From Lachnospiraceae bacterium (GTDB lineage: Bacteria; Bacillota; Clostridia; Lachnospirales; Lachnospiraceae): a stretch of DNA of 46,908 nucleotides. The stretch is from assembly GCA_017619975.1 (NCBI GenBank), contig JAFZRH010000026.1:1-46908 (forward strand), given 5' to 3'. The position numbers and the translations under genes are program-made. Each line of letters starts with the position of its first letter. The stretch's first letter is position 1. Under the pieces are notes generated by a model that was given only the letters and a program-made list of their open reading frames with translations, had not been told where the DNA came from and searched no databases. This document shows positions 11,527-14,290 of this stretch, piece after piece.

Positions 11527-13354
11527 AGGAGACTCCTTTCTGCAGATCTGCCGTTCCGGTCTGGATCTCGTAGATCTGCTGATAAATGCCGCCGGCAGTC
11601 TTTAATTCTTCCGGGGTGCCCAGTTCCGTTATGCGGCCCTTGTCCAGCACCAGCACCGTGTCCGCCTGAGAAAGCGTGGTGATGCGGTGAGAGATCAGGA
11701 TGACCGAAGAGCCGGCGAAATGGGACTTTAATGAGGCCCGGATCTTCGCGTCGGTCTCCGTATCCACGGCGGAGAGCGAATCGTCGAAGATCATGATGGG
11801 CGTTCTCTGCGCCAGCGTCCGGGCGATGGCCGCCCGCTGTTTCTGGCCGCCGGAGAGCGTTACGCCGCGTTCGCCCACGAACGTGTCATAGCCCTTGGCA
11901 AAGTCCATGACCGTATCGTCCAGACAGGCGGAGCGGGAGACTTCCCGCACCTCTTCCAGACTCATCTCGGGCCGGGTGATGGCGATGTTTTCCTGCAGCG
12001 TCCGGGAGAAGAGGAAGGGTTCCTGCAGCACCATGCCGATGTTCTTGCGCAGGTAAGCCGTGTCGATATCTTTTATGTCCACGCCGCCGATCGTGATGCG
12101 GCCGCCGTCGTCGGACAAAAGGTACAGCTTGTTCAGGAGCGCCATCAGCGTGGATTTGCCGCTGCCGGTCCCGCCCAGGATCCCCAGCGTTTTTCCCGCG
12201 GGGAGCGTAAAGCTGATGTCGTGCAGCATCTCCGGACTGTCCTCATAGGCAAAGCTGACGTGATCGAATTCGATCGTCTGATCCAGGGGCGGCGTAAGCG
12301 CCTTCTCTGAAGCTTTTTCCTCTTCGGAAGACATGATGTAGGCAATGCGGTCCAGCGACACGCCGGCCTTGCTCATTTCCGCGATCATGCGGCCGAGCAT
12401 GCGGATCGGCCAGATCAGCATGCCGTTGTAGGTAATGAAGGCCACGTATTCGCCGGGCAGCAGCCGGCCGTTAATGCAGCGGGCGGCGCCGACGATCACG
12501 ACCAGCATGACCTGCAGGCTGGCCAGGATATCCGCGCTGCACCAGTAGCGGGCCATTACGCGGGCCAGCCGGATCCACAGGTTGGTATAGGAGGTGTTCT
12601 GCTCGTTGAAGCGGTCCGTTTCCCGGCGCTCCCGTCCGAATGCACGCACCACGCGGACGCCGGTCAGGTTTTCCTGGACCATGGCGGAGAGAGCGCCTTC
12701 GGCCTCGTCCGCTTCCGCAAAGCCTTTCTCGATCCGCTGTGAAAATACATAGGAATAGATCAGGATCAGCGGCATGAGGGAGAGAGCGGTCAGGGTGAGC
12801 GTGACATCCATCCGCAGCATGAAGATGAGCGAAAGGACGACCAGGATCACGATGCGGAAGACCTGCGTCAGCTGTTCCGAGACGAAGTTCTTTAAGGTGT
12901 CGATGTCCGACGTGCAGCGCTGGATGATGTCGCCGGTGCGGTTCTTGCCGTGCCAGGCATAGGGCAGGCGCTCGATATGGGAAAAGAGCGTATCGCGCAT
13001 CGTTTTGACCAGCGTTTCCGAAGCCTTCGTGTCCGAGACGCGGAACAGGTACTGGGCGATCGCTTTGACGAGAGCCACGATGACGATCGCCAGCGCCATG
13101 ATCCAAAGATGCTTGGCCAGACAGGCCATGCCGCCCAGACGGTCCACCAGCTTCAGGACAAACGGCGGCTGCGTCGGTTCGGCGCCGCCCAGCACGTTGT
13201 CGATCGCCATGCGGATGATCTGCGGTCCGACCATGTCGGCGAGGGCGCTGAGGATCGCACTGAGGATCGCTGCGGCGAAAAGGAGGCGGCTCCCCCGCAG
13301 GAAGCGTCCAAGGAGTTTTATATTCTGTTTTGTGTTCTTCTTTTTCTTTTCCAT
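11516..13354 (-). CDS. ABC exporter half-transporter, subunit 1 (Walker B Asp instead of Glu)
   Basis: A 612-residue ABC half-exporter, first gene of the pair. After a Lys-rich N-terminus come six membrane helices (about 25-330), then Walker A GGTGSGKST (about 393-401), Q-loop VLQEPFLFSR, a canonical signature TLSGGQKQR and H-loop LISHRITTL. Walker B ends IMIFDDSLSAVD, so the usual catalytic Glu is Asp. With the partner's altered signature this places both defects in one composite site, the standard asymmetric heterodimer design. No strong ribosome site precedes the ATG; a terminator hairpin, a leader ORF and a promoter precede it, suggesting attenuation. Confidence 0.93.
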   Translation of the reverse strand: MEKKKKNTKQNIKLLGRFLRGSRLLFAAAILSAILSALADMVGPQIIRMAIDNVLGGAEPTQPPFVLKLVDRLGGMACLAKHLWIMALAIVIVALVKAIAQYLFRVSDTKASETLVKTMRDTLFSHIERLPYAWHGKNRTGDIIQRCTSDIDTLKNFVSEQLTQVFRIVILVVLSLIFMLRMDVTLTLTALSLMPLILIYSYVFSQRIEKGFAEADEAEGALSAMVQENLTGVRVVRAFGRERRETDRFNEQNTSYTNLWIRLARVMARYWCSADILASLQVMLVVIVGAARCINGRLLPGEYVAFITYNGMLIWPIRMLGRMIAEMSKAGVSLDRIAYIMSSEEEKASEKALTPPLDQTIEFDHVSFAYEDSPEMLHDISFTLPAGKTLGILGGTGSGKSTLMALLNKLYLLSDDGGRITIGGVDIKDIDTAYLRKNIGMVLQEPFLFSRTLQENIAITRPEMSLEEVREVSRSACLDDTVMDFAKGYDTFVGERGVTLSGGQKQRAAIARTLAQRTPIMIFDDSLSAVDTETDAKIRASLKSHFAGSSVILISHRITTLSQADTVLVLDKGRITELGTPEELKTAGGIYQQIYEIQTGTADLQKGVSYAG

Positions 13355-13374
13355 GATGTTCTGTTTGATTCCAT

Positions 13375-13405
13375 AAAAAAATAGCGCCGCCTTAAAGGCT
13401 CGCTA
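13375..13405 (-). terminator. Intrinsic terminator in the ABC exporter leader (putative attenuator)
   Basis: On the minus strand, TAGCGAGCC (13397-13405) pairs with GGCGGCGCTA (13382-13391), followed by seven T residues (13375-13381). It ends only 20 bp before the ABC start codon and lies downstream of the promoter and the leader ORF, so it must be read through for the operon to be expressed. A second hairpin (GGGAGGC near 13454-13460 with GCCTCCC at 13420-13426) lies just upstream. Confidence 0.8.
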
Positions 13406-13501
13406 CACACAAAAGGTTCGGGAGGCCGATTAAGGTTTCCAGACAGACCGGCCGCCTCCCCATGAGAAGGAAGGATCAGATGCAGGTCTGTACCTGTTCA
13501 A

Positions 13502-13540
13502 TTAGAGGAGATTCGCCTCCCAGCGGACTTTGATGATCAT
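13502..13540 (-). CDS. 12-residue leader peptide upstream of the ABC exporter
   Basis: Short ORF encoding MIIKVRWEANLL. It begins 7 nt after a consensus AAAGGAGG (13548-13555) and about 40 bp after a TTGACA-17-TAGGAT promoter, and stops about 100 bp before an intrinsic terminator. The best ribosome site in this leader therefore serves the short ORF, not the transporter. The 8-mer GGGAGGCG inside its coding sequence (13514-13521) recurs at 13453-13460, and both can pair with GCCTCCC at 13420-13426. This suggests that ribosome position on the leader decides the RNA fold. It has no run of one amino acid, so amino-acid sensing is unlikely. Confidence 0.6.
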   Translation of the reverse strand: MIIKVRWEANLL

Positions 13541-13581
13541 TGATGAGCCTCCTTTCCTGTAATTTTTCATCAATCCCGTTC

Positions 13582-13610
13582 ATCCTACCATTGAAACGAG
13601 CGGATGTCAA
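13582..13610 (-). promoter_or_regulatory. Strong sigma-A-like promoter of the ABC exporter leader
   Basis: Minus strand: a perfect TTGACA (13605-13610), a 17-nt spacer and TAGGAT (13582-13587). Transcription would begin near 13575, about 35 nt ahead of the leader peptide start. Confidence 0.8.
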
Positions 13611-13624
13611 CTGCTTTTTATCTG

Positions 13625-14290
13625 TTATTCCGTTTCCGCCGCGATCACGTGCAGAACGCCGCCTTCCACCCGGAAACGGACGTTGTATTCCGCAAAACGT
13701 ACGCCGTAGATCCGCTCCGGATCTTCCTGATAGGCCGGGCGGGGATCGAGCGAGAGCAGTCCGGTGAGCGCTTCGAGCTTGTCTGCCGGCAGCCGGGACG
13801 CGATACCGTCCGGGATCACGACAGAAAGGCGCCGCGCCTGAAACGCATCGTTTACGCGTGCGTCGGGATAGGCGTCCGCATAAGGCAGATAGGGCTTGAT
13901 ATCAACGATGGGGGTGCCGTTCATTAAGTCCGCGCCGGCCACGACGAGGACCGGCCCCTCCGCCGTTTGCTCCAGCCGGATCAGCTCCACGCAGGAAAGC
14001 CCCAGCCGGTTCGGCCGGAAAGGGGAACGCGTCGCAAAGACGCCCACCCGCGTATTGCCGCCCAGACGCGGCGGTCGGACGGTGGGAGAGAAGGGCGCGT
14101 CCGCCGGGACCTCGGAGAACTCCCAGATCAGCCAGAGATGCGAATAGGCTTCGATCCCCCGGAACGCTTCCGCGGCCCGGTAAGGCGGCTCCATGACGAT
14201 GCGGGAAAGCAGGGCGGGGTTTAAGCCGCTCTGCCGCGGAACACCGAATTTCTCCGTATAATCGTTCTCGATATGTGCGATCGCTCTCAT
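13625..14290 (-). CDS. trmO: TrmO (TsaA/YaeB) family tRNA methyltransferase
   Basis: A 221-residue protein of the TrmO family, which methylates the N6 of t6A37 in tRNA using S-adenosylmethionine. The family signature is plain: RLGGNTRVGVFATRSPFRPN (about 77-96), preceded by SHLWLIWEF and followed by VDIKPYLPYAD. The C-terminal part carries the small domain ending in a beta-hairpin. The start is placed at 14290, after GGGAGGATAACGGC; an upstream in-frame ATG at 14542 would run through the divergent promoter region. A promoter TTGTCT-17-TACATT lies just upstream. The gene ends 15 bp before the exporter promoter. Confidence 0.92.
   Translation of the reverse strand: MRAIAHIENDYTEKFGVPRQSGLNPALLSRIVMEPPYRAAEAFRGIEAYSHLWLIWEFSEVPADAPFSPTVRPPRLGGNTRVGVFATRSPFRPNRLGLSCVELIRLEQTAEGPVLVVAGADLMNGTPIVDIKPYLPYADAYPDARVNDAFQARRLSVVIPDGIASRLPADKLEALTGLLSLDPRPAYQEDPERIYGVRFAEYNVRFRVEGGVLHVIAAETE

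Follow-up and report, generated by a model that had tools for sequence, protein, structure and literature searches.

The stretch of DNA in front of a two-gene ABC exporter of a Lachnospiraceae bacterium raises the question of whether it controls transcription of the exporter and, if so, by which means. The DNA analysed, here called the window, is contig JAFZRH010000026.1 with its 46,908 nucleotides; on its minus strand, a 256-bp unit lies between a TrmO-type gene (TIGR00104 above cut-off) and the exporter. The order within the unit is a promoter, a Shine-Dalgarno sequence (SD), a short ORF encoding the peptide MIIKVRWEANLL, a hairpin-rich stretch and a terminator ending in seven T residues, after which the exporter starts (Table 1). 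A sequence-only reading had proposed that this arrangement acts as a ribosome-mediated attenuator, sensing inhibitors of translation.

The leader and the exporter behind it

Re-reading of the sequence found the near-consensus promoter, the SD, the 12-codon ORF and the T7 terminator at the positions first noted. A scan of positions 13000-14000 returned one promoter-like site, with 0.4 expected, and this is the leader promoter, with TTGACA at 13605-13610 and TAGGAT at 13582-13587. When the best-fitting -35/-10 pair was picked upstream of 12 leaders, all of them displayed a -35 hexamer, TTGACA in 11 cases and TTGACT in one, together with a -10-like hexamer; L005, which is near-identical to L003, is omitted from this and the other 12-leader computations, as well as from the alignments. 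An open frame and its SD are kept in all 12 leaders examined, the latter being an AAGGAG-type site located 5-13 nt ahead of the start codon. A search of the window against Rfam gave no family at gathering score, and a plasmid search for the leader gave no match.

Table 1. Features of the leader unit and of the exporter genes in the window
Feature	Position	Strand	Remarks
Promoter, -35 TTGACA and -10 TAGGAT, TG before -10	13582..13610	-	17-bp spacer
Shine-Dalgarno of leader ORF, AAAGGAGG	13548..13555	-	AAGGAG-type site in relatives
Leader ORF MIIKVRWEANLL, 12 codons and stop	13502..13540	-	K4-V5-R6, motif of macrolide-arrest type
YTGAATA-type motif directly 3' of ORF, here TTGAACA	13495..13501	-	conserved; possible 3' strand of a weak ORF-spanning hairpin
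Hairpin P2, CAGACC/GGTCTG arms	13444..13490	-	same-place hairpins in relatives
C1/C2 element CCTTAATCGGCCTCCCGAACCTTTT, able to pair with leader SD region	13411..13435	-	pairing compared with shuffled targets
Intrinsic terminator hairpin and T7 tail	13375..13404	-	covariation across relatives
ABC exporter subunit 1, 612 aa	11516..13354	-	Walker B FDDSLSAVD, Asp replaces catalytic Glu
ABC exporter subunit 2, 604 aa	9712..11526	-	canonical Walker B LDEATSSVD

The terminator consists of a hairpin at 13383-13404 and of the T-run at 13375-13381, leaving 20 bp to the exporter start at 13354. It was not listed by the promoter/terminator scan of 13000-14000, probably because its stem is interrupted. 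The stem covaries over 10 leaders: 78 of 80 cells are paired and the score is 0.303, each of these values being reached by 0/500 shuffles, and the same holds for the five cells changed on both sides; the pairs changed on both sides are three (reached by 21/500 shuffles) and the further pair types are seven (173/500). L014 was left out of the alignment A3, and hence of this analysis, while L074 is absent from A1-A3. The distance between T-run and exporter start is 8-20 nt in L002, L003, L004 and L007, a gap too short for a promoter, so that the exporter in the window can be reached only by read-through; in the remaining eight of the 12 leaders the distance is 28-219 nt (counted from the first T in L012, where the T-run is broken) and another promoter is possible there. 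No recognisable SD precedes the exporter start in the window (13355-13374) or in L003, L004 and L007.

The exporter belongs to the ABCB-type heterodimers in which one ATP site is degenerate, the condition that arises when Asp takes the place of the catalytic Glu in Walker B. Its matches to known structures include YheI/YheH, which we take to be BmrC/BmrD, the entries 5mkk and 6raf, presumably TmrAB, and TM_0288; these matches rank below eukaryotic ABCB chains. A second ABC exporter gene, distantly related (35% identical), is carried by the same genome, G000 (L027, G000:C5:50415-52019).

Distribution of the leader

Sixty-one genomes were searched for the exporter. An orthologue with at least 67% identity is present in 14 of the 16 genomes of the genus (L002-L015), and an SD, a short ORF and a terminator lie upstream of 12 of these 14 long orthologues. 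A covariance model, named R1, was then built for the ORF segment; applied to the 16 genomes, it gave matches with E 1.4e-4 or better in 13, corresponding to the 12 known leaders and to L074 of genome G007; the latter was found blind, its exporter being cut by the contig end and missed earlier. Leader ORF and terminator are thus found before the orthologous exporter in 13/16 genus genomes. The sequence-only reading had pointed to orthologous exporters as the place where ORF and terminator should recur; this was borne out by the 12 long orthologues and L074, but not by L006 and L008, whose exporters (84% and 80% identical to that of the window) show no leader by eye or with the covariance model. 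The exporter start of L006 is preceded, at about 10 nt, by the end of another ORF, and in L008 a bare promoter is found; the leader and terminator were either lost from these two exporters or never present. Genome G015, which is 67% complete, yielded neither exporter nor leader.

The genes preceding the unit are variable. TrmO is close upstream in 6/13 cases (L002, L009, L010, L013, L015 and L074) and more than 2 kb upstream in L011, and it was not found in the available upstream stretch of L003-L005, L007, L012 and L014; the leader unit accompanies the exporter despite these differing neighbours.

Beyond the genus, the covariance model was used with stricter filters. Among 397 genomes of the family, strong matches were obtained only in G000 and G003, and among 392 genomes of the order, a sample overlapping the previous one, only in G000, with none outside the genus in either search. 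Five order-level matches have E values of 0.009-0.044, which chance alone could give in 392 genomes. Six weak matches away from the exporter were inspected and turned out to be starts of ordinary genes or pieces of coding sequence. Scanning of genome contigs provided 33 loci; when these and 11 other loci were compared with the model, strong matches were found in 8/44, all from genus records (L030, L031, L033, L034, L036, L037, L038 and L058), while in the other 36, among them loci from Oscillospiraceae and from additional Lachnospiraceae relatives, no match had an E value below 0.8. Those genus records that carry a name are metagenome-assembled genomes of uncultured Lachnospiraceae, and most titles mention goat omasum, water buffalo rumen or RUG, presumably for rumen uncultured genome. 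Literature searches listed no description of this leader among the accessible papers, and the string MIIKVR was found in none of these. On these comparisons, the leader can be considered a new family, found here in one genus, for a kind of control that is already known.

An unrelated arrangement is present in an Oscillospiraceae locus (L051:2500-3000), whose exporter is 51% identical: it contains a promoter-like site, an SD, a 30-codon ORF (MTLRRSSVSAATRIDTPEV...) and a T-tailed hairpin. Arrangements resembling an attenuator may thus have originated repeatedly in front of this exporter.

Leader peptides and candidate antiterminators

The leader ORFs of the 13 genomes are 10-15 codons long and encode 11 distinct peptides. 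MIISILWEGHSR is common to three genomes (L003-L005), MIIRTLGEELSR is the peptide of L007, and MIKTRNTRREVSR that of L074, where it is found ahead of the same exporter and downstream of TrmO; besides the peptide of the window, the others are MLSIRIRNFREERIR, MLSMRIRWMRREGSR, MLSIRIRVFREESVN, VIIRIRFFGGKVSR, MIIKVRREASFR, MKNRKEASLN and MIIKVRVEGTLR. An Arg/Lys-X-Arg/Lys motif within residues 2-8 is present in nine of the 11, that of the window included, and is missing in those of L003-L005 and L007. Shuffling of residues gives a mean of 3.2 and 0/20,000 shuffles reach nine, a figure that overstates independence, since the peptides are related and do not represent nine independent events. The motif occupies codons 2-7 and is not C-terminal; only L009 also ends in RIR.

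Other features of the ORF are less informative about the peptide. In the codon-position test, where L007 is poorly aligned and L004 was left out, differences number 255, 262 and 276 at positions 1, 2 and 3; with no third-position excess in the ORFs, selection on the peptide finds no support in this test. The stop codon lies at most 5 nt from the YTGAATA motif in 12/12 leaders, which is weak evidence because the motif itself contains TGA, and some other frame behaves likewise in 7/12.

The motif is known from ribosome arrest: ketolides are described as stalling ribosomes predominantly at Arg/Lys-X-Arg/Lys (PMC8298421), and in the Bacillus subtilis tlrB leader MIIQFIRYR tylosin stalls the ribosome at the RYR end, the middle residue of which occupies the P site, although according to the same source stalling results from only some of these motifs (PMC6851288). 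The sensing of translation inhibitors, which the sequence-only reading had favoured, would thus gain a specific lead from the presence of the motif in 9/11 peptides, and by analogy we infer that the leader senses a macrolide-type drug.

Several pairings had been suggested from the letters of the window. The 8-mer GGGAGGCG was confirmed at 13514-13521 and at 13453-13460, and GCCTCCC at 13420-13426; CCTTAA is also present, although at 13430-13435, one base off the 13431-13436 given at first. TTAAGG is found at 13390-13395, AGGCTC at 13545-13550 and GAGCCT at 13396-13401. Comparison of the 12 leaders speaks against two of the suggested pairings: the match of GGGAGGC in the ORF with GCCTCCC is the longest ORF match in the window only, and CCTTAA with TTAAGG, which covers 6 bp in the window, is down to 5 bp in L013 and 4 bp in L074, with other short matches in its place elsewhere. 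Both the ORF/C2 and the CCTTAA/TTAAGG pairings were dropped, as they are not kept in relatives. For the third one, between the SD region and the 5' arm of the terminator, equivalents of 5-6 bp made of other letters exist in L003, L004, L007, L013 and L015, but not throughout the 12 leaders.

Compared with shuffled targets, pairing of the SD region is more stable with C2 (mean z -1.25; negative in 10/12 leaders), and for the terminator 5' arm the mean z is -0.91, with negative values in 9/12; in a swap test, the leaders' own SD/C pairings were no better than swapped ones. In the ORF-spanning hairpin (UCAR with YUGA), 97.2% of cells are paired and a single pair covaries, but it does not exceed shuffles. 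A hairpin in the position of P2 is also found in L003, L004, L007, L013, L014, L015 and L074, and none comparable to it in L009-L012. The consensus fold of the leaders is weak overall, and the whole leader of the window is no more stable than its shuffles (z -0.82; 40/200 as stable). In L074, the C1 element (TATTACGG) has a perfect complement in eight bases of the ORF (CCGTAATA), and 5-6 ORF bases pair with C1 in L009, L011 and L012; outside the clade of the window, the pairing that functions may be that of the ORF with C1. None of the candidate antiterminators compared is conserved throughout the 12 leaders.

The effect of ribosome position was modelled in two ways. Equilibrium folding with a ribosome footprint barely moved the terminator probability, except in L014, and was set aside as powerless, because the E. 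coli trp leader used as control stayed at 0.96 throughout. It was replaced by folding of a transcript truncated directly ahead of the terminator 3' arm. Here the trp control gave a sequestration of the 5' arm of 0.78-0.83 for a ribosome on either of the two Trp codons, against 0.07 in the free state or at the stop; smaller increases, to 0.39-0.52, were seen at codons 1-3 and 8-9. In L002, sequestration of the terminator 5' arm is 0.70 in the free state, 0.54 at codon 1, 0.09-0.26 at codons 2-4 and 0.54-0.71 from codon 5; in L003/L004 it is 0.65 free, 0.29-0.40 at codons 1-5 and 0.59-0.66 from codon 6. In these leaders, a ribosome positioned within the first 4-5 codons therefore lowers the pairing between SD and terminator, which can form again once the ribosome has reached codon 5-6. 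The pattern is absent from the other 9/12 leaders and the trend is opposite in L009-L011, so that folding of the leader states, the check proposed with the sequence-only reading, yields a plausible ribosome-dependent pairing in L002-L004 but not one conserved across the genus. Since the peptides of L003/L004 are without Arg/Lys-X-Arg/Lys, their signal stands in motif-less leaders. From this modelling, the SD paired with the terminator 5' arm is a plausible antiterminator in a minority of leaders.

The lack of a conserved antiterminator and the unremarkable folding of the whole leader would also suit a leaky terminator that sets a low, constant level of exporter, with an ORF that is translated and senses nothing. 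A comparable case is patAB of Streptococcus pneumoniae, where a terminator before a heterodimeric ABC exporter likewise limits expression and the words "leader peptide" do not occur in the accessible text of the source (PMC4319486). However, a leaky terminator would need neither an SD and ORF conserved in 13/16 genus genomes nor the YTGAATA element, and we regard this explanation as unlikely, if still worth attention. A riboswitch-like leader, in which RNA structure senses a ligand and the ORF is incidental, appears distinctly less probable: it would account for the nucleotides conserved outside the ORF (YTGAATA, C1/C2) and for the codon-position result, but it agrees poorly with an SD and open frame in every leader examined, with the negative Rfam search, with the absence of P2 in L009-L012 and with the weak consensus fold. 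Finally, its own promoter and terminator, and the room left for another promoter by 8/12 gaps, might indicate that the 200-nt transcript belongs to a gene of its own, for a small RNA or a microprotein, whose end lies before the exporter by chance, but this is very improbable, given exporter starts 8-20 nt past the T-run in four leaders and a unit that stays with the exporter beside varying upstream genes.

Proposed control and its relation to known systems

The unit is thus probably a ribosome-mediated transcription attenuator of the heterodimeric exporter. The first proposal is thereby supported in part: the promoter, SD, ORF and covarying terminator in 13/16 genus genomes and the 20-bp gap, where a further promoter would not fit, sustain attenuation, whereas two of the three suggested pairings do not recur as such in relatives. 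RNA polymerase would start at the promoter and a ribosome would translate the 12-codon leader; during normal growth the terminator would halt transcription ahead of the exporter, while disturbed translation of the leader would cause the downstream RNA to fold differently or too late, leading to read-through and production of the exporter. Read-through would thus depend on the position of the ribosome, and the likely trigger would be a macrolide-type drug that stalls it at the Arg/Lys-X-Arg/Lys motif, with Val5 in the P site and Arg6 in the A site. Most likely, the pump is made only in response to a disturbance of protein synthesis, such as an antibiotic may cause.

A tentative candidate for the switch follows from the folding of L002-L004: a ribosome on codons 2-4 would cover the SD, and one held at codon 5 or later would free it for the terminator 5' arm (GGAGGCTC with GAGCCTTT), thus forming the antiterminator, with the C2 element possibly competing for the SD. 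A more far-reaching and rather unlikely proposal is that these leaders are genus-specific, drug-sensing arrest peptides with the Arg/Lys-X-Arg/Lys motif on the N-terminal side, whose own SD is the antiterminator strand: free initiation would mask the SD and lead to termination, while a ribosome at codon 5-6 would block the start codon, expose the SD and open the terminator.

If attenuation is correct, uncultured Lachnospiraceae of the ruminant stomach possess an exporter that can be induced, with a peptide of 12 residues disclosing the trigger, and a second kind of leader, beside the experimentally shown bmrCD one, exists for ribosome-mediated control of a heterodimeric ABC exporter. Such a compact leader would also allow one to ask how short an arresting nascent chain can be, and the leaders of the 13 genomes, with 11 distinct peptides, two of them without the motif, would be a natural series for this question.

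Among known systems, several leaders are similar by description. Those of vmlR, msrD and hflXr likewise attenuate resistance genes in response to translation inhibitors, with different targets (PMC9226507, PMC10314930, PMC6310831), and for the predicted ABC-leader of lactobacilli, from other organisms, premature termination is likewise predicted ahead of an operon for multidrug ABC export (PMC2965389).

Two more similar systems, bmrB-bmrCD and tlrB, are from B. subtilis. In bmrB-bmrCD a heterodimeric multidrug ABC exporter likewise follows a promoter, an ORF for a leader and an intrinsic terminator; this exporter is described as induced by ribosome-targeting antibiotics, with leader translation being required (PMC4191407). 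The layout is not matched, since bmrB is 162 bp long with the terminator inside the ORF (PMC4191407), whereas here the ORF has 12 codons and ends at 13502, and the terminator hairpin begins about 100 nt beyond, at 13404. The tlrB (yxjB) leader is likewise very short, with an MII start, an Arg-X-Arg motif and a terminator before a resistance gene (PMC6851288); the MII start common to tlrB and the window leader is noted and is not claimed as homology. Differently from the leaders described here, where the motif is at codons 2-7, in tlrB it is C-terminal, the target is an rRNA methylase, and the stalled ribosome is reported to block the terminator hairpin directly (PMC6851288). A search for the RlmA zinc ribbon of a tlrB-type gene was negative, with a hit in 0/16 genomes, 10 of the 16 belonging to the genus. 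Taken together, the unit most likely works like the bmrCD and tlrB attenuators, where translation of a leader controls a terminator placed before a resistance-type gene.
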